Both the position numbers and the translations under genes were made by a program. Shown piece after piece: positions 23,434-30,958 of a stretch of DNA of 30,958 nucleotides. Positions within the stretch are counted from its first letter, which is position 1. Each line of letters starts with the position of its first letter. The notes below the pieces were generated by a model. That model was not told the origin of the DNA and did no database searches. It saw nothing but the letters and a program-made list of their open reading frames with translations. The DNA is from a virus: positions 1 through 30,958 of IMG/VR virus record IMGVR_UViG_3300025098_000186. One strand, given 5' to 3'.

Positions 23434-24018
23434 CTATCCAATCAATGACCGGCGGCGCCGCGTCTTCTTGTCTTCCTCGCCAGAACCAAGCAAACCGCTA
23501 GGTGTCGTAAGAATAGTTGATCGGCGCCCCTTCTTCATAAGGTCAATCGCCTCATCTTCAGCAGGGCCAACAGAGGTTGCACTTGCAGCAGCAGCCTGGG
23601 CAGCCCCGCCAGCAGCAGTGCCAACAGATGAAACAGGATCAGCCTCGCCAACAAAATCAGCGTCTTCGCTAAACGTGTCCTGACTAATCGTTTCAACTTC
23701 CGTCAAGGCAGTGTCAGTTTCGGTATCAAGCGTAGTGGTTGTGTCTGCGGCTGTGTCAGTTGCGGTGTCAGTTGCAGTAACCGCTGCCACAGGAACAGGA
23801 TCATCGTTGTCGCTCTTCATCATTTGTTCGACAGCGGCCATAGATCTTGCCTGCCGTTCAGCCAAATCACGATCATAAACATCGTTCTTCTCTTTAATGC
23901 CAATATCCATTAAAAGATCGTCAGTCGCACTGTTTTTAGGTGCGTTCATAGTGGAACCTCTAGGAGCACCTTCGTCGCGCGTTGTGTCTTTTGGCGTAAA
24001 GTCTAAACATCCACCCAT
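23434..24018 (-). CDS. acidic low-complexity protein, 194 aa, with conserved basic C-terminal motif
   Basis: The protein begins MGGCLDFTPKDTTRDEGAP. A charged helix follows (about residues 40-68), then a Thr/Asp/Ala-rich disordered stretch (about 75-145) and an Ala-rich segment. The C-terminus holds LMKKGRRSTILTTPSGLLGS and ends KTRRRRSLIG. The R-R-x-S-T-I-L-T-x-x-x-G-L-L-G motif recurs in podovirus proteins encoded near the portal; the function is not known to me. Its ATG overlaps the stop of the acetyltransferase gene (TAATG). The disordered body makes domain searches weak. Confidence 0.62.
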   Translation of the reverse strand: MGGCLDFTPKDTTRDEGAPRGSTMNAPKNSATDDLLMDIGIKEKNDVYDRDLAERQARSMAAVEQMMKSDNDDPVPVAAVTATDTATDTAADTTTTLDTETDTALTEVETISQDTFSEDADFVGEADPVSSVGTAAGGAAQAAAASATSVGPAEDEAIDLMKKGRRSTILTTPSGLLGSGEEDKKTRRRRSLIG

Positions 24019-24491
24019 TACAAAACCTTCCTATACTGAGAGCCAACCGGCTCATAACCAAACTTTTTAATCAGCTCATTCGATCTAGGCATCGAAATGC
24101 CAGAAGAAGTGCCGCCAACTAAAATCTTTGCCCCCTTATCAAACGCCCAAGACTCAAACATCTTTAACAACCTAACACCAATCATACCACCACGATGCTC
24201 AGGTGAGACATACCATAAATTGTTCTGAGCTGACAAGGTTTTTGAAAAATACAACTGATAGACCCAGCCAGACATAAATCCAACAACCTCGCCACCACGC
24301 TCCGCAACAGCAAGAAAACAAGACTCATCATCATAAAGCCAAGACAAATGACCAGCAAAAACAACATCGTCAAAAACAATGTTGTTAAATTGCGTCTCTT
24401 GATGAAAGTCACGGCACATCTTAAAAATCGCAGAAGCATCACTGCGATCCGCTAACCGATATAAACAAGGATCACGCCGCAAATGGATCAT
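24018..24491 (-). CDS. GNAT-family N-acetyltransferase, 157 aa
   Basis: A compact GNAT fold. An N-terminal helix region (SDASAIFKMCRDFHQE) leads to the central strands ESCFLAVAERGGEVVGFMSG. The acetyl-CoA-binding loop YVSPEHRGGMIGVRLLKMF (residues 94-112) contains the R/Q-x-x-G-x-G/A-type pyrophosphate motif, here R100-G-G-M-I-G105. The C-terminal strand region is NELIKKFGYEPVGSQYRKVL. It would transfer an acetyl group to an unknown substrate. The gene overlaps the 3' end of the large terminase by 20 bases and sits among head genes, so co-expression with late genes is certain but the role is not. GNAT genes at this place occur in other podoviruses. Confidence 0.82.
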   Translation of the reverse strand: MIHLRRDPCLYRLADRSDASAIFKMCRDFHQETQFNNIVFDDVVFAGHLSWLYDDESCFLAVAERGGEVVGFMSGWVYQLYFSKTLSAQNNLWYVSPEHRGGMIGVRLLKMFESWAFDKGAKILVGGTSSGISMPRSNELIKKFGYEPVGSQYRKVL

Positions 24492-26018: not shown

Positions 26019-26242
26019 AACGCATGGCTTAACCGTGGCGTCATAATAACTATTATGTTAAATAGAACACAAGGCATTGTTGTTGCTGTAGATTTTTTGC
26101 GCGACTGCCATGCATCAAACGCAAACCACAAGATGTTGTGCCTACCCTGCCTCGCTGGCCTGGCGCCGAGGTGTCTCAGCATGCCGGCCTCACGCGCGTA
26201 GCTGTCAACGACAGGATGTGTTGTATACACAAGATCCGACAT
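25937..26242 (-). CDS. uncertain small ORF after terS
   Basis: ATG at 26240-26242 overlaps the terS stop as TGATG, and a TTG lies just before it. The first 60 codons (MSDLVYTTHPVVDSYAREAG, then RHNILWFAFDAWQSRKKS) look like a real helical protein. The later part, after a hydrophobic stretch (CVLFNIIVIM), runs through C-rich tracts and overlaps the next frame by 82 bases. No family is recognised. Either the gene ends in a way the tracts have altered, or only the N-terminal half is coding. Confidence 0.35.
   Translation of the reverse strand: MSDLVYTTHPVVDSYAREAGMLRHLGARPARQGRHNILWFAFDAWQSRKKSTATTMPCVLFNIIVIMTPRLSHAFCANRPPHPPQNRAPLYLYITPELETL
25992..26005. repeat. G6-T-G7 homopolymer tracts
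   Basis: On the plus strand six G (25992-25997), one T and seven G (25999-26005); on the coding strand C7-A-C6. Such tracts are prone to slippage and to base-count errors in sequencing. They lie exactly where two overlapping minus frames meet. Confidence 0.9.
26042..26057. other. short perfect inverted repeat CATAATA-AC-TATTATG
   Basis: CATAATA (26042-26048) and TATTATG (26051-26057) are exact reverse complements separated by two bases. In the minus direction the right-hand end offers TATTAT with TTGTGT 18 bases upstream, a weak promoter-like pair that could serve terL. The palindrome could also be an operator half-site pair. It lies inside the uncertain ORF. Confidence 0.25.
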
Positions 26243-26706
26243 CAATGCTTTGTTACTCTCTCTTCCTTTTGGTCAGGCACAACCTCAGTGGTATTGACCT
26301 CGACATCCCCACCAGCCCAACTGATTGTGAACGTCTGGGCTTGTGGCTGGTCTTCTTTCTTGTCCCTTACGCCCCAAGGCATGTTCCGTGCTAGCGTCCA
26401 TTTCAATGTATCAATCTCAAGCCTACGACGTTGCACCTCCGCGTTAGCCAGCCTGTTATCCTCAAACGTAGGCAGTGGCGACACTGCCAGGCTGTTGATG
26501 TGGTCAGTGAAATATTCTGACTGCATGACCCTACCTCTGCGATAGATCTCATACAGATCATCATCACGCAGCACGGCTTGCATGACGCCTTGATAGGTTG
26601 GCATGCCGGCTGTCTTGAGTATGTCTTTGAGTGTTTCGCCTACTGCCAAGCGGTCAGCGATCTTGTGCATCAGCTCGGCGTTAATTTTTACTGGTTTCTT
26701 TGCCAT
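26242..26706 (-). CDS. terS: terminase small subunit, 154 aa
   Basis: A 154-residue protein of the Sf6 gp1/P22-type small terminase group. The N-terminal helix-turn-helix region is ADRLAVGETLKDILKTAGMP (residues 17-36), for recognising the packaging site. It is followed by LYEIYRRGRVMQSEYFTDHI and RRRLEIDTLKWTLARNMPWG, the oligomerisation core. The C-terminal tail is short and polar. It is expected to form a ring that binds phage DNA and stimulates terL. It is the first gene after the terminator, with SD GAGG 6 bases before ATG 26706, and probably opens the late operon. Confidence 0.85.
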   Translation of the reverse strand: MAKKPVKINAELMHKIADRLAVGETLKDILKTAGMPTYQGVMQAVLRDDDLYEIYRRGRVMQSEYFTDHINSLAVSPLPTFEDNRLANAEVQRRRLEIDTLKWTLARNMPWGVRDKKEDQPQAQTFTISWAGGDVEVNTTEVVPDQKEERVTKH

Positions 26707-26830: not shown

Positions 26831-27418
26831 TCAGAATGGAATGTCATCATCAAACACTTTCGGCTTTGCTCGGATGTCGATCACCTCTGCGGCTGGGAAT
26901 GATTCTTTGACTGCCTTCTCGAACTCTCCTGCGTTGTGGTCTCTGAAGTGTCTGTATGCCAGGGCCACCTCTCTGAGCGTTAGCAGCTCTAGGTCTGGCC
27001 GTTGCTCTTTGATCTTTTGCCACGACCTTCCGTCTTTCATAATGCCAAAGGTCTCGCCATCCAGTTCCATCTCCCAGATGTCTGTTGAGGCTCTCTGTGC
27101 GCCTAGTCTCTCTGCCTCTGCGTCCATTGCATTGAGGCCTCTTACGACCACCTCTGCTCTGACCTTACATTCTTCTGGATTGTTTTCTTCGATAGCCTTG
27201 TTCATCTTTGCCATTGCAGATCCATACTTCTGCGCTGTCTCGACGCTCACTAATTCTGGCAGCATGTCGATGCCCCACTTTGTGTCCATTTGTATTGCCA
27301 GCCGATCCATTGGTGCTATTGCGTAATCACACATGATTTGATCCTTATGAGCTTGCGGGTTGAATATTCTGTCTGCCTTCTTTTGGCGCCTTGGCCTCCG
27401 AGGCTTCTGCGTTGTCAT
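26831..27418 (-). CDS. replication-associated protein with an SSB-like C-terminal tail, 195 aa
   Basis: The frame is open from GTG 27430, but GGAG ends just before three ATG codons; ATG 27418, 6 bases after GGAG, is the best start (MTTQKPRRPRRQKK). The N-terminus is strongly basic. The body (about residues 30-170) is mixed alpha/beta with ETAQKYGSAMAKMNKAIEEN, ELDGETFGIMKDGRSWQ and LELLTLREVALAYRHF, and I recognise no family. It lacks an OB-fold pattern. The last residues are KVFDDDIPF, and FDDDIPF is identical to the end of E. coli SSB, the tail that binds many host replication and repair proteins. It follows the repeat-rich region and ends the replication operon, so a host-replisome adaptor or initiator role is inferred. 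Confidence 0.72.
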   Translation of the reverse strand: MTTQKPRRPRRQKKADRIFNPQAHKDQIMCDYAIAPMDRLAIQMDTKWGIDMLPELVSVETAQKYGSAMAKMNKAIEENNPEECKVRAEVVVRGLNAMDAEAERLGAQRASTDIWEMELDGETFGIMKDGRSWQKIKEQRPDLELLTLREVALAYRHFRDHNAGEFEKAVKESFPAAEVIDIRAKPKVFDDDIPF

Positions 27419-27426
27419 CATCATCT

Positions 27427-27570
27427 CCACAGTTAAATCACCACAGTTTCATATAATCCACATTCCACCACAGTAGTATGCATATACATACAACTACTGT
27501 GGTGGAAGTATTTGTGGCCTTTTCTTCCACAGTTCCACAGTTCATCCACAGTTCGGAAAAGCAACTGTGG
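27427..27570. repeat. CCACAGTT iteron-like array, candidate origin or operator region
   Basis: Exact CCACAGTT starts at 27427, 27441, 27527, 27535 and 27546, with the reverse form AACTGTGG at 27563. CCACAGT (27468) and ACTGTGG (27496) occur in the arms of an inverted repeat. TTCCACAG is a direct tandem at 27525-27540. TAATCCACA (27454-27462) and TCATCCACA (27542-27550) each match the DnaA box TTATCCACA at 8 of 9 positions. The array fills the gap between the primase-helicase gene and the SSB-tail gene. Replication initiation, or binding of a phage regulator, would explain it. Confidence 0.7.
27463..27507. repeat. perfect 15-bp inverted repeat within the iteron array
   Basis: TTCCACCACAGTAGT (27463-27477) and ACTACTGTGGTGGAA (27493-27507) are exact reverse complements around a 15-base AT-rich spacer, ATGCATATACATACA. 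No U-tract follows in either direction, so it is not a standard terminator. A cruciform or a dimeric protein site with an AT-rich unwinding spacer is more likely. Confidence 0.85.
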
Positions 27571-27586
27571 AACTGTTGGGAAAGCA

Positions 27587-29776
27587 TCAGACTTCCTCCC
27601 AATTGATCCACTCACCGACCACCACGCACGGCACATCTCTTCCGCTTCGTGTGTCTCTTATCTCTGCGACTTTGAGGTTGCCTGTGCTGATCCACTTCTT
27701 TGCGATTGCCTTGGCCTTTGCTTTGTCCCCTGGCTTGTCTGTATCGAGGTCGAGCTGTTCTGCGACTGCATTGCCGATCCAGCTCTTTGCTCTGATGTCT
27801 GATCGGTATGCCTTGCCTTCTTCCTCTGCCTTTCCGACTGCTCTTTGCACATCGTACAGGTCTTTGGCTGTCACGCCGTCGAACAGGTCAGGCAGCTTGA
27901 ACTCTGTTGCTACGCCTATGTGTTCACCGTTTGCGATCTCGACTGAGATCATCTTGCGGTATGTTGCCTTGTCTGACGGTGGTGCGAGGTTTGCTTTGCC
28001 ATCGTCTTGGCGGAATATCCCGAGGGCTTCCTGTTCGTCCACACCGAGGGCCATTGCGTCTTCTGGCGATATTCTGTTGATTACTCTTGCTGCTCTTGCT
28101 GCACCGATCAGACTGCCTGCCCCTCGCACTGAATCCACTGTTGCGTCTTCTCCGTTGCCTTTTCGGATATGATGCACAAGCTGGACTGAGCTGTTGGTAT
28201 CTCTTGCCAGCTTCCTGAGCATTGATACGACTGCCTGTATGCTTCCATTATTATTCTCATTGACCAGGTGGGCAGATATGAATGGATCTAGGATCACGAC
28301 TTTTATGTTGTTGTCTTTGATCTTTCGGATCATGAATGCCAGCAGCTCATCGTTCTGGATCAGGCCGTCCCTGCCTTCTGCTGCCAGTGTGATCTGCATG
28401 GTGTCCTCGCCATCCATAAACAGCTTGCCTTTGATGTCATCTGGCTTGAGGCCATAGTGCTGCATTGCTGCTATGGTTCTCATTTGAAGTTCCGAGATCG
28501 GATCTTCCAAATTTATGACCCATGTGTTGCACTGTTCCTTGACCCTTACGCCAAGCAGGTCTTTGCCTGTCGATATTGCCAGTGCTTCCACAATGATTGC
28601 TGATGTCTTGCCTATACCGCCGGCCGATGCTGTTACGCTGATATACTTCTTGATGTAGTCGTATCCATACACCCACTCTCTGCGCGGCAGTGTGAGAGCA
28701 TCAAACATTTCGTAGGGCGTGGGCCAATCATTGCCTGTATCGGCCTCTGTGTGGCTCTGTGTTGGCTCTGTGGCTATCTGCAATGTCTGGTTTTGCTGCT
28801 CCATGCGCTCGGCTGCTGGATCTGGCGGTGGCGTCCAGCCTTTTGCTCTGGCGCCGTCGATTGCCTTCTGCACCTCTGCCCTTGTTTCTTCTACTGAGTA
28901 GCCGCCAAGGGTAAAGCCATCTGTGATTGCGTGGATCTCTTCGTCTGCTAGGCCTTTGTTGACGTATGATCCAACCAGGCGCACCATATTGTGATGCCAA
29001 TCCTCTCCTGCTAGCACGTTTTGGACTGCCATCTGCCTGTCCATTGCTTGCTGGCCGAGGTCTATGTTGATTGTGCTAGCAGCCTGTGGCTCTGCCCTTG
29101 GGAAGGCGCGCATCATGCGCTCAAACTCTACTGGCTCTCTGTCTGTACTAAATTCTGTACGCATTGTGACCAGCTCTGGGACGTATCCTTTGTCTTGTTT
29201 CTTTTGGTTGGGCCATGAGACTGTGCCTGCCACGCGCATGATGCGTGATGGGTTGATGACTGCTGCATCTGTTTGGAGCGAGGCGGCGATTGCTTTTTGT
29301 ACGTCACGCCATGCCTGCATGTTTTGCACTGGCTCTTCTAGCTGCCAGTATGCGTGGCCTCTTGCGAATGGCGTTGTTCCTGTCTTGATAGACATTGTGA
29401 ACTTTGGGCCGGCGAAAGATAGGATGTTTTCCATTGCGCCGGCAGTGTCTGCGTCTGCAAAGCAGTAGAACGCGGCTAGGATGTCTGTGTCTTTGGCTGC
29501 TTGGCCTGCTGGTATATCCACGATTGGATCAATTGGATTGATGCACATATAGATATTTTGCTTGGCGGCGTTCATTGCCTCGGCGTGCTGGGCTGCGTCT
29601 TCTATGTTTTTTAGTGCAAATCTTGCGGCGTTTGCTGATCCAGATTGCGATATAGAACGTATCTCTATGAGCGGTTGGCCCACAGTGTTCCAATTTTCTG
29701 TGATCTGTGCTATGAACTGCTTAATGATTTCGGTTTTGGGAGCCATTTCCATTTGTTCTTCCACTTCCATTTTCAT
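27587..29776 (-). CDS. primase-polymerase/helicase fusion, 729 aa
   Basis: The N-terminal part (about residues 95-200) has the pattern of archaeo-eukaryotic-type primases such as RepB. It has FADADTAG (acidic D108, D110), GHAYWQL (140-146) and SRIMRVAGTVSWPNQKK (177-193). A PriCT-like helical linker follows (about 255-310). Residues 350-570 are a RecA/RepA-type ATPase, with Walker A AGGIGKTS (385-392), Walker B VVILD (493-497), then LVHHIRKG (533-540) and RGAGSLIGAARAAR (551-564). The C-terminus is a charged helical tail. It should unwind DNA and make primers, perhaps also extend them. The SD GGGGAGGA stands 5 bases before ATG 29776, just after a hairpin. Confidence 0.82.
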   Translation of the reverse strand: MKMEVEEQMEMAPKTEIIKQFIAQITENWNTVGQPLIEIRSISQSGSANAARFALKNIEDAAQHAEAMNAAKQNIYMCINPIDPIVDIPAGQAAKDTDILAAFYCFADADTAGAMENILSFAGPKFTMSIKTGTTPFARGHAYWQLEEPVQNMQAWRDVQKAIAASLQTDAAVINPSRIMRVAGTVSWPNQKKQDKGYVPELVTMRTEFSTDREPVEFERMMRAFPRAEPQAASTINIDLGQQAMDRQMAVQNVLAGEDWHHNMVRLVGSYVNKGLADEEIHAITDGFTLGGYSVEETRAEVQKAIDGARAKGWTPPPDPAAERMEQQNQTLQIATEPTQSHTEADTGNDWPTPYEMFDALTLPRREWVYGYDYIKKYISVTASAGGIGKTSAIIVEALAISTGKDLLGVRVKEQCNTWVINLEDPISELQMRTIAAMQHYGLKPDDIKGKLFMDGEDTMQITLAAEGRDGLIQNDELLAFMIRKIKDNNIKVVILDPFISAHLVNENNNGSIQAVVSMLRKLARDTNSSVQLVHHIRKGNGEDATVDSVRGAGSLIGAARAARVINRISPEDAMALGVDEQEALGIFRQDDGKANLAPPSDKATYRKMISVEIANGEHIGVATEFKLPDLFDGVTAKDLYDVQRAVGKAEEEGKAYRSDIRAKSWIGNAVAEQLDLDTDKPGDKAKAKAIAKKWISTGNLKVAEIRDTRSGRDVPCVVVGEWINWEEV

Positions 29777-29827: not shown

Positions 29828-30439
29828 TTAAAACTCTGCGTCAGCTGGGGCTGGTGCAGGAGCTGGGGCCGGTGCGGGTGCAGCTTCTTCGACTGCTATC
29901 CCTGCGGCGACACCTTCTTTCAGGCAGTCAGGCTTGTCTACCCACTTTACGATCTCAAAGATCGGGTAGCATGTGGAGCCTTTGGTGAACTTGATTTCCT
30001 TGGCCTCAACCATTTTGATGAGTGGCATTTGGCCGTTTGTGCCTTGGCTTAGTTTTGGAGCGAGATCTGTTAACGCGGCCCACACGCCGGCGCCTGCCTG
30101 CTCCCACATGGCGACCTTGCCGCCACCGATAGCACACTTGACCGAAAAGCCTTTCTTGTAATCATCACCGGGCTTGCCCATCATTTGATTAACTGTTGGG
30201 TTCCATTTCCACTCGGGAGCTACGCCAACCATGCCGTCTGACTTCTGCCATCCTGTCTTTAGGCTGTCCAAGTCAATGACAAAGCCGTTAGTCTGCGCAG
30301 CCTCAAACTCATCCTTTGCCGCACCGTCACGGGTATAGAACTGCTTGGCGCGGACGGAGCCGTCCTGTGTGCCGCGTGCTGACCATTGCAGGAATGTGTT
30401 AACGTCAGAGCCTGATGCCCCTAGATCTATTTCAAACAT
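29828..30439 (-). CDS. putative phage ssDNA-binding protein, 203 aa
   Basis: A 203-residue acidic protein. The core (about residues 10-175) has FLQWSARGTQDGSVRAKQFY, SLKTGWQKSDGMVGVAPEWK and GDDYKKGFSVKCAIGGGKVA. YPIFEIVKWVDKPDCLKEG follows, a pattern I associate with single-stranded-DNA-binding-type proteins of alphaproteobacterial and marine phages. It then has a Pro-Ala linker (185-199) and ends ADAEF, an acidic-aromatic tip like those used by T7 gp2.5 and SSB to contact replication partners. It lies between a nuclease and the primase-helicase, which supports a replication role. The OB fold itself cannot be proven by eye. SD AAAGGA precedes ATG 30439. Confidence 0.65.
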   Translation of the reverse strand: MFEIDLGASGSDVNTFLQWSARGTQDGSVRAKQFYTRDGAAKDEFEAAQTNGFVIDLDSLKTGWQKSDGMVGVAPEWKWNPTVNQMMGKPGDDYKKGFSVKCAIGGGKVAMWEQAGAGVWAALTDLAPKLSQGTNGQMPLIKMVEAKEIKFTKGSTCYPIFEIVKWVDKPDCLKEGVAAGIAVEEAAPAPAPAPAPAPADAEF

Positions 30440-30499: not shown

Positions 30500-30958
30500 T
30501 TAGATGCCATACATTTCTTCCCGCAGATCTTCTGCCCCGTTCCAGTAGAACGTGTTAGGGTTGACGGGTATGACCTCTCTAATATCTTCCGCGCTACCTG
30601 AGCGCAGGAACTTTTCCAGACGAGCGATCTGCTTCTTGGCTTTGCCAAGGATCTCTGTTGGATCGCCGTCTTCAAGCATGTTTGTTTTCTTTGATGACAC
30701 ATAAAGAAACTTGACCACCTGGTTGCCTCGGGCCTTCTGGTAGATCGCGCGTTGCAGTTGATGCTCTGGCGACATCTTGCTTGGGATGCGGCCTGTTGTT
30801 TTAAGATCAATGACCACGCCGTGATCTGGGAATACAAAGTCAAGGTAGCCGATCACAGGGATCTCGAAGTCATCTGTCTTGGCTGTGATGCTGATCTTTG
30901 TTTGCCCGTCTTCAGGAAACTCAGGCTTGCCGTAATGCTCAAGCTCTTGGAGTGTTAG
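30500..30958 (-). CDS. PD-(D/E)XK nuclease, RecB/Cas4-like, N-terminus beyond the window
   Basis: The frame is open to the right edge, beginning LTLQELEHYGKPEFPEDGQ, so the GTG at 30856 is not the start and the gene continues outside. The nuclease core is visible. GYLDFVFPDHGVVIDLKTTG gives the catalytic D of GYLDFV and the D-x-K of VIDLKTT. The QLQRAIYQKA helix matches the Q-x-x-x-Y motif of RecB/Cas4-type exonucleases. The protein ends with TFYWNGAEDLREEMYGI. It probably processes or degrades DNA during replication or recombination. The SSB-like gene follows after 60 bases. Confidence 0.85.
   Translation of the reverse strand, partial: LTLQELEHYGKPEFPEDGQTKISITAKTDDFEIPVIGYLDFVFPDHGVVIDLKTTGRIPSKMSPEHQLQRAIYQKARGNQVVKFLYVSSKKTNMLEDGDPTEILGKAKKQIARLEKFLRSGSAEDIREVIPVNPNTFYWNGAEDLREEMYGI

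Follow-up and report, generated by a model that had tools for sequence, protein, structure and literature searches.

Bacterial SSB uses a short C-terminal hook to hold replication enzymes, and the end region of DnaX tau contacts Pol III alpha in E. coli. The acidic tail of T7 gp2.5 serves T7's own polymerase and helicase; this tail ends in DEDGDF and is not of the IPF type. In the accessible part of the HK620 report, the SSB of that phage carries a tail, NDYPPF, that is needed for Sak4, that is, an SSB-type tail likewise employed as a phage protein hook (PMC5928155). The available text on SPP1 describes a phage that replicates with host polymerases and whose gp40 helicase binds host DnaX and DnaG, such that the host replisome is captured via the clamp-loader axis (PMC6316719).

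The locus described here lies in an IMG/VR virus record of 30,958 bases from a marine phage, the whole of which we call the window, and it may combine elements of these systems in a different arrangement. Whereas the HK620 tail, in the portion of the source at hand, is on the SSB itself (PMC5928155), the SSB-type tip of the window phage is on a separate protein, P0001, and the phage's own candidate SSB is without it. Whereas SPP1 gp40, according to the accessible text, itself binds host DnaX (PMC6316719), the window phage appears to encode a tau-like piece itself, along with the SSB tip. We posit, at a probability of roughly 0.45, that P0001 acts as an adaptor in the phage replisome: it would present host Pol III to the phage helicase and, through the SSB tip, take hold of the host machinery at a second point. 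The features concerned are as follows.

26242-26706: Sf6-type small terminase (PF20901, E 1.8e-16)
26831-27418 (coding 26834-27418 plus stop), minus strand: P0001, adaptor candidate, 195 aa (reading frame, model, conservation)
26834-26854, minus strand: SSB-type tip FDDDIPF, P0001 residues 189-195 (sequence, conservation)
26864-26980, minus strand: tau-like segment, P0001 residues 147-185, TLREVALAY...FPAAEVIDIRAK (profile comparison with the DUF3646 type of DnaX tau)
about 27431-27586, no strand: intergenic stretch, candidate origin or operator (perfect inverted repeats 27463-27477/27493-27507 and 27529-27542/27563-27576)
27587-29776, minus strand: RepA-type AAA_25 helicase, with weak primase-like PHROG matches in its N-terminal part (profile search)
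29828-30439, minus strand: candidate phage SSB ("ssbA" type), predicted to be beta-rich and OB-like, ending in DAEF without an IPF tip (sequence, model)
30500-30958, minus strand: PD-(D/E)XK exonuclease-like gene, cut by the window end (profile search)

The P0001 frame runs from an ATG at 27418 to a stop at 26831-26833, and an alternative GTG at 27430 would add four residues. Its C terminus reads KVFDDDIPF and that of E. coli K-12 SSB reads MDFDDDIPF; the sequence-only reading, which had equated the last seven residues of the two proteins, was exact on this point (FDDDIPF) and was also correct about the basic N terminus (KPRRPRRQKK). In the AF2 model (25 aligned sequences; pLDDT 79.7, pTM 0.61), helices are found within residues 14-104 and strands and helices within residues 114-173, with low confidence in residues 1-12 and 184-195. 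The predicted structure has no OB fold, as the same reading had anticipated, and P0001 matches no SSB family. In total, P0001 shares with bacterial SSB the last seven residues, placed after a stretch predicted to be disordered, and differs from it in a body that is predicted to be non-OB.

What is this body related to? Among solved structures (PDB, Foldseek), no fold match was found at an E of ≤0.001, and a PDB sequence search likewise gave nothing significant. A second structural comparison (VIA) aligned mostly residues 19-109 with helical bundles (e.g., DnaK and SCIN) at a best Z of 8.2, which is below the level advised by the tool for helical models. Among the predicted viral proteins of BFVD, there are 13 matches at an E of ≤0.001, of which seven are called "uncharacterized," five are nameless in the tables, and one (A0A6J5NZ37) is called "terminase small subunit." P0001 and its relatives match no named family in Pfam, NCBIfam, PADLOC, or PHROGs, and P0001 does not match the TerS family; the sole weak PHROG match, phrog_32193 (E 0.001), is not annotated as to function and gives no functional clue. 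A near-DNA search of the P0001 region in phages returned no match, and a match to a Haloarcula virus (E 6e-3) looks unrelated by eye. The proposal that no described family has such a design therefore stands for these four collections and for the literature searched (most subscription journals lie outside its scope), in which we found neither a non-SSB phage protein with an SSB tip nor a phage tau mimic.

Relatives of P0001 were collected from eight viral_contigs scans, two genome_contigs scans, and annotated phage records, which together gave at least 358 loci with a complete P0001-like frame; some contigs were counted repeatedly, so these loci do not equal contigs. We work below with a unique set of 214 members (window included) that are distinct by their last 150 residues, a set that leaves out open P0001-like frames, two duplicates (L149 and L001), and repeats of the same last 150 residues. 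Six of the viral_contigs scans supplied the best 80 of 98, 114, 118, 300, 87, and 102 confirmed loci; one of them (80 of 300) was seeded on a tip-less member, and the first genome_contigs scan yielded no P0001-like locus. Because the shares of tip-bearing and tip-less members are shaped by the choice of seeds and by these best-80 listings, they do not represent natural frequencies.

With this understood, the tip is present in 140 of the 214 unique listed family members and absent in 74. The 32 loci of the first scan all carry it, as FDDDIPF in 30 and as FDDEIPF in 2. Beside an ssbA-type SSB, 85 of 90 unique listed members have the tip, versus 1 (loose definition) or 0 (strict definition) of 5836 other distinct stop-to-stop frames from the same DNA (≥100 aa, six frames, many not genes); given 85 of 90 against 1 of 5836, the P0001 tip is beyond chance. 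Across 38 tip-bearing representatives (clusters at ~85% identity), the linker columns have entropies of 2.6-3.4 bits, versus 0.40 for the Ile and 0.69 for the Phe/Trp; the rows were chosen for having the tip, and the Pro column is thus zero by construction. Several synonymous codons are used at the near-fixed tip positions. Conservation of the tip holds beside the ssbA type of SSB and breaks down in the wider family. The sequence-only reading had named homologues that keep the body and lack the acidic IPF end as evidence against its interpretation, and 74 of the 214 unique listed homologues are of this kind.

Some natural tips are extended. P0001-like proteins at four loci (L092, L093, L159, and L161) end in DEIPFG, with an extra residue after the tip, and the SSBs of L210 and L293 end in DDEIPFMMEWR or DDEIPWIMEWR. 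These six proteins could be used to probe the need for a free terminal Phe.

A second likeness, newly noticed here, precedes the tip: on profile comparison, residues 147-185 appear similar to the last part of DnaX tau in its Caulobacter (DUF3646) form. DUF3646 (Pfam PF12362) exceeds its cutoff in Caulobacter alone among 14 control genomes, and we take tau of this type to be "alphaproteobacterial." For comparison, DUF3646 places were located in 50 of 200 genomes of Pseudomonadota (the phylum of the genome that holds L297, described below); 30 were fetched, and 23 gave usable frames. A profile of 55 P0001 relatives aligned with the profile of these 23 tau C termini with a score of 46.3 and a probability of 88 (E 3.1e-6, which is the value for a single comparison). 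The match spans ~37 columns, covers P0001 residues 147-185, and closes with FPAAEVIDIR/FPGATIVDVR. Sixty column-shuffled tau profiles reached at most 20.6 (mean, 13.2) and the reversed profile 15.3, versus 46.3 for the real one. Residues 105-185 alone gave a probability of 92 against tau, and neither the N-terminal part of P0001 nor the SSB profiles gave anything against the tau profile.

The signal is also seen, with modest E values, in searches of larger sets. The tau profile retrieved 135 of the 214 listed family members and 53 of 4823 other frames (≥150 aa) at an E of ≤10, and its best 25 matches are all P0001 family members (best E, 4.7e-4). In the reverse direction, the two best bacterial matches of the P0001 profile in the 200 genomes (E 0.027 and 0.037) both lie inside a tau gene; at an E of ≤1, this profile found tau in 2 of the 50 DUF3646 genomes, and, besides a phage in G001, ten further matches with an E of up to 1 lie elsewhere as far as they are comparable. 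Single-sequence searches give less. One relative (L132) matches NCBIfam NF006585 (DnaX gamma/tau) over residues 65-189 with an E of 9e-5 and 21.3 bits against a cutoff of 604, a match that alone proves little because unrelated models, of beta-lactamases, reach 0.019 in the same scan. Pfam DUF3646 picked out 1 of 25 members (E 0.011) in a search in which unrelated families reach 0.006, and P0001 itself does not reach its curated cutoff (no match). On a Caenibius plasmid, the tau profile favors the SSB by a small margin (E 0.0072, against 0.011 for the P0001-like protein).

How does P0001 compare with tau as a whole? It has no similarity to E. coli-type tau (E. coli and 13 others), and DUF3646-type tau aligns with domain V of the E. 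coli type down to the last stretch (probability 65.5, E 5.8e-5, 90 columns). In the profile comparison, it is the last stretch of domain V of the DUF3646 type that residues 147-185 match, and the order of strands and helices in this domain, from reading the tau sequence, seems like that of P0001. DnaX tau has AAA+ clamp-loader domains; these are absent from P0001, which at 195 aa has no AAA match. A match of ~37 columns may reflect a short mimic or convergence, without common descent. Of the listed members, 73 of 74 without the tip and 125 of 140 with it retain the loose motif F..Ax[VILMF]; since it persists in both groups, this tau-like motif may be more basic to P0001 than the tip is.

The tau set also offers an observation of its own. 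Five of the 23 DUF3646-type C termini (L365, L368, L376, L379, and L393) are acidic with a terminal Phe, reading DDEIEF, GDDIEF, GDDIIF, DDDIDF, and ETDDF, and they resemble the ends of the window SSB type (DAEF/DMEF) and of some tip-less P0001 relatives (EDEIDF and the like). A second shared tail type, acidic with a final Phe, may exist.

Where P0001 is tip-less, the tip is often found on the phage SSB instead. The SSB gene is complete in 139 of the 214 unique loci (the other 75 are without a complete SSB gene in the fetched DNA), and in 128 of these 139 unique listed loci exactly one of the two proteins bears the tip. The bulk consists of 85 loci with a tip on P0001 and a tip-less ssbA-type SSB and 42 loci with a tip-less P0001 and a tip on an SSB of a second type, ssbE; the remaining one (L319) has an ssbE-type SSB that ends in DDELAF, without the Pro, and a P0001 that ends in the tip EDEIPW. 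A single locus (L164, ssbE type) has both tips, and ten have neither (five ssbA and five ssbE). Within these ten, the P0001 tip is damaged or extended in four (L312, L323, L332, and L335), an IPF or IPW stands a few residues before the SSB end in four others (L210, L248, L292, and L293), and L102 and L217 show neither remnant. Outside the 139, the Caenibius sp. WL plasmid record has a P0001-like protein with DGLPF plus five residues and an ssbA-type SSB that ends in EDDVDF. Counted from the side of the tip-less members, an SSB was seen for 52 listed ones; 47 of these SSBs are of the ssbE type, 42 of which carry the tip at their end. Because of these 42 of 52, the tip looks, from the sequences, like a module with two possible seats, SSB or P0001. 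Only two loci (L319 and L164) weaken the simpler account in which SSB type alone dictates where the tip sits.

Whole clades account for most of this complementary pattern. A tree with 55 representatives implies six changes of the P0001 tip and four of the SSB tip. It contains two supported pairs that differ in SSB tip, for which the P0001 tip differs in the opposite way in 0.5, not at all in 1.5 (averages), and in the same way in none; in a 47-row tree relating SSB type to the P0001 tip, the two supported pairs divide into 1.3 opposite, 0.7 without difference (averages), and none the same way. With so few switches, kinship-aware tests of complementarity cannot reach 0.05 in either tree. The locus with both tips (L164) stands beside Roseobacter phage CRP-811 in the first tree (87/81, below the starred level), a placement that is lost in the second; by the first, it is as if L164 had been caught between tip states. 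In another phage, ctyzp037 (L149:6416-8716, MW202711.1), it is the RepA-type helicase that ends in GETFDDIPFD, one residue past an SSB-type tip; there, SDPIPF is the end of the P0001-like protein and QADDFEDF that of the product encoded at the SSB position.

The two SSB types themselves can be characterized to some extent. The window phage does have another candidate SSB, as the sequence-only reading stated, namely the 29828-30439 product, for which no family match was found. Foldseek gave a best E of 0.026 and none at 0.001; on a second look, its list contains 11 entries with a Z of ≥2, mainly DNA-binding OB-fold proteins and all below the advised Z of 8, headed by a phiC31 integrase-RDF chain (Z 6.6, rmsd 4.8 over 144 residues), followed by RB69 SSB (Z 4.5) and then by BRCA2, RPA, SSB, and MCM at lower Z. 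As an aside, the phiC31 entry raises the thought that a recombination directionality factor is perhaps related to a phage SSB. The ssbA-type C terminus follows the pattern acidic-x-EF, as DAEF or DMEF in all 48 early-set sequences (47 loci and the window); in the final set, the last residues are more varied, and none of 90 listed ssbA-type SSBs has the IPF tip. The end of this type resembles that of T7 gp2.5, which is likewise acidic with a final Phe and without Ile-Pro. The ssbE type is exemplified by the CRP-811 SSB, which resembles T7/Enc34 SSB (PF10991, E 3.3e-5, 24.1 bits against a cutoff of 26); three others, from L216, L217, and L210, match the profile of CRP SSBs (E ≤2e-19) but nothing in Pfam.

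The gene neighborhood is consistent with a role at the phage fork. In the window, transcription proceeds from the exonuclease-like gene through the candidate SSB, the helicase, and P0001 to the small terminase, and repeated CCACAGTT words accompany the two perfect inverted repeats of the intergenic stretch. A helicase was seen in 188 unique listed loci; in 181 of them, P0001 lies downstream of it on the same strand, at a distance of ≤1.5 kb. In all 134 listed loci with both genes, the SSB is upstream of the helicase. The phages CRP-811 and CRP-831 have the order exonuclease, SSB, helicase, and P0001 homologue, and CRP-821 and CRP-823 have the helicase and the P0001 homologue in the stretch examined; such hosts as are known agree with the adaptor reading, in that the CRP phages infect Roseobacter and the Caenibius record comes from an alphaproteobacterium. 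In 24 records (the window, 21 viral contigs, and 2 isolates, possibly fragments), no match to a polymerase of family A, B, or C reached its cutoff; a DNA_pol_B match in G204 (14.2 bits, below the cutoff, in a frame with a stop) was left uncounted. The window helicase protein may have primase-polymerase activity, since it matches the PHROGs DNA polymerase/primase (1.4e-36, helicase part) and, weakly, DNA primase (0.019, N-terminal part). In the part of the source available on the CRP-822 group, some phages have a polymerase, subgroups without one depend on host machinery, and the gene of the P0001 homologue receives no comment (PMC12629253).

A phage with its own helicase and SSB and no replicative polymerase needs host Pol III, and we propose the following mechanism for how P0001 could bring it. 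The helical body would dock either on the RepA-type helicase of the phage or on DNA that the phage SSB has coated. The tau-like segment (residues 147-185) is predicted to bind Pol III alpha, and the tip (residues 189-195) is predicted to bind host readers of the SSB tail, e.g., chi or PriA. With both handles engaged, host Pol III would be drawn to the phage fork, and the tip on P0001 would be dispensable where the phage SSB ends in it, with the tau-like motif staying. More tentatively, and with the odds leaning against so broad a statement, we speculate that the whole family mimics a pair of components of the host replisome, with a tau-like segment that binds Pol III and with the SSB tip, and so links a foreign helicase to host Pol III; the tip would then be a mobile module, passed between SSB and adaptor over the course of phage evolution.

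Much of the same evidence could be read in other ways. The neighbor of P0001 in 181 of 188 listed loci is a RepA-type helicase, the N terminus of P0001 is basic, and a repeat-rich intergenic stretch adjoins it; these features would suit a helicase loader or an origin-binding organizer whose tip recruits primosome factors of the PriA or DnaG type and whose likeness to tau is a short convergence. We consider this unlikely: the tau match exceeds the column-shuffled and reversed controls and is also visible in whole genomes, and P0001 matches no loader family in the collections searched. It is less likely still that P0001 works as a soluble decoy, drawing Pol III and the host readers of the SSB tail off the chromosome, even though host SSB and tau would face competition from the tip and the tau-like segment and the body has no recognized enzyme domain. 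Gene order links P0001 to the phage helicase and SSB, and the P0001 tip is mostly absent where the phage SSB has it, a pattern more in keeping with a common task at phage DNA than with titration. The position of a tau-like segment before the tip likewise favors recruitment of host polymerase over sequestration of host proteins, insofar as sequence can speak to it. That P0001 is a packaging protein related to the terminase small subunit, with an incidental tip, is very improbable: P0001 adjoins the terminase genes in the window, and one BFVD match bears the terminase name, but a separate small terminase gene of the Sf6 type is present in the window, none of the other 12 BFVD matches has that name, and the CRP homologues lie beside a helicase with no annotated terminase in the stretches examined.

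If P0001 is the adaptor that we posit, then a phage without a replicative polymerase places its own helicase before host Pol III via a copied coupling piece, and the SSB tip is functional when moved onto another protein. An unnamed family that occurs in many viral contigs from marine and fresh waters would thereby also gain a function. Its members with and without the tip amount to a natural set of experiments on the role of the SSB tip at the fork.

Two further observations concern the surroundings of the family. A betaproteobacterial MAG (L297, CP070643.1:830710-847282) contains the exonuclease-SSB-helicase-P0001 module, in which P0001 ends in INDPIPF and the SSB in LDDMEF; the module may be a prophage or a binned phage contig. 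In the window, near the large terminase gene, a 157-aa open reading frame at 24018-24491 looks, by eye, like a GNAT acetyltransferase.
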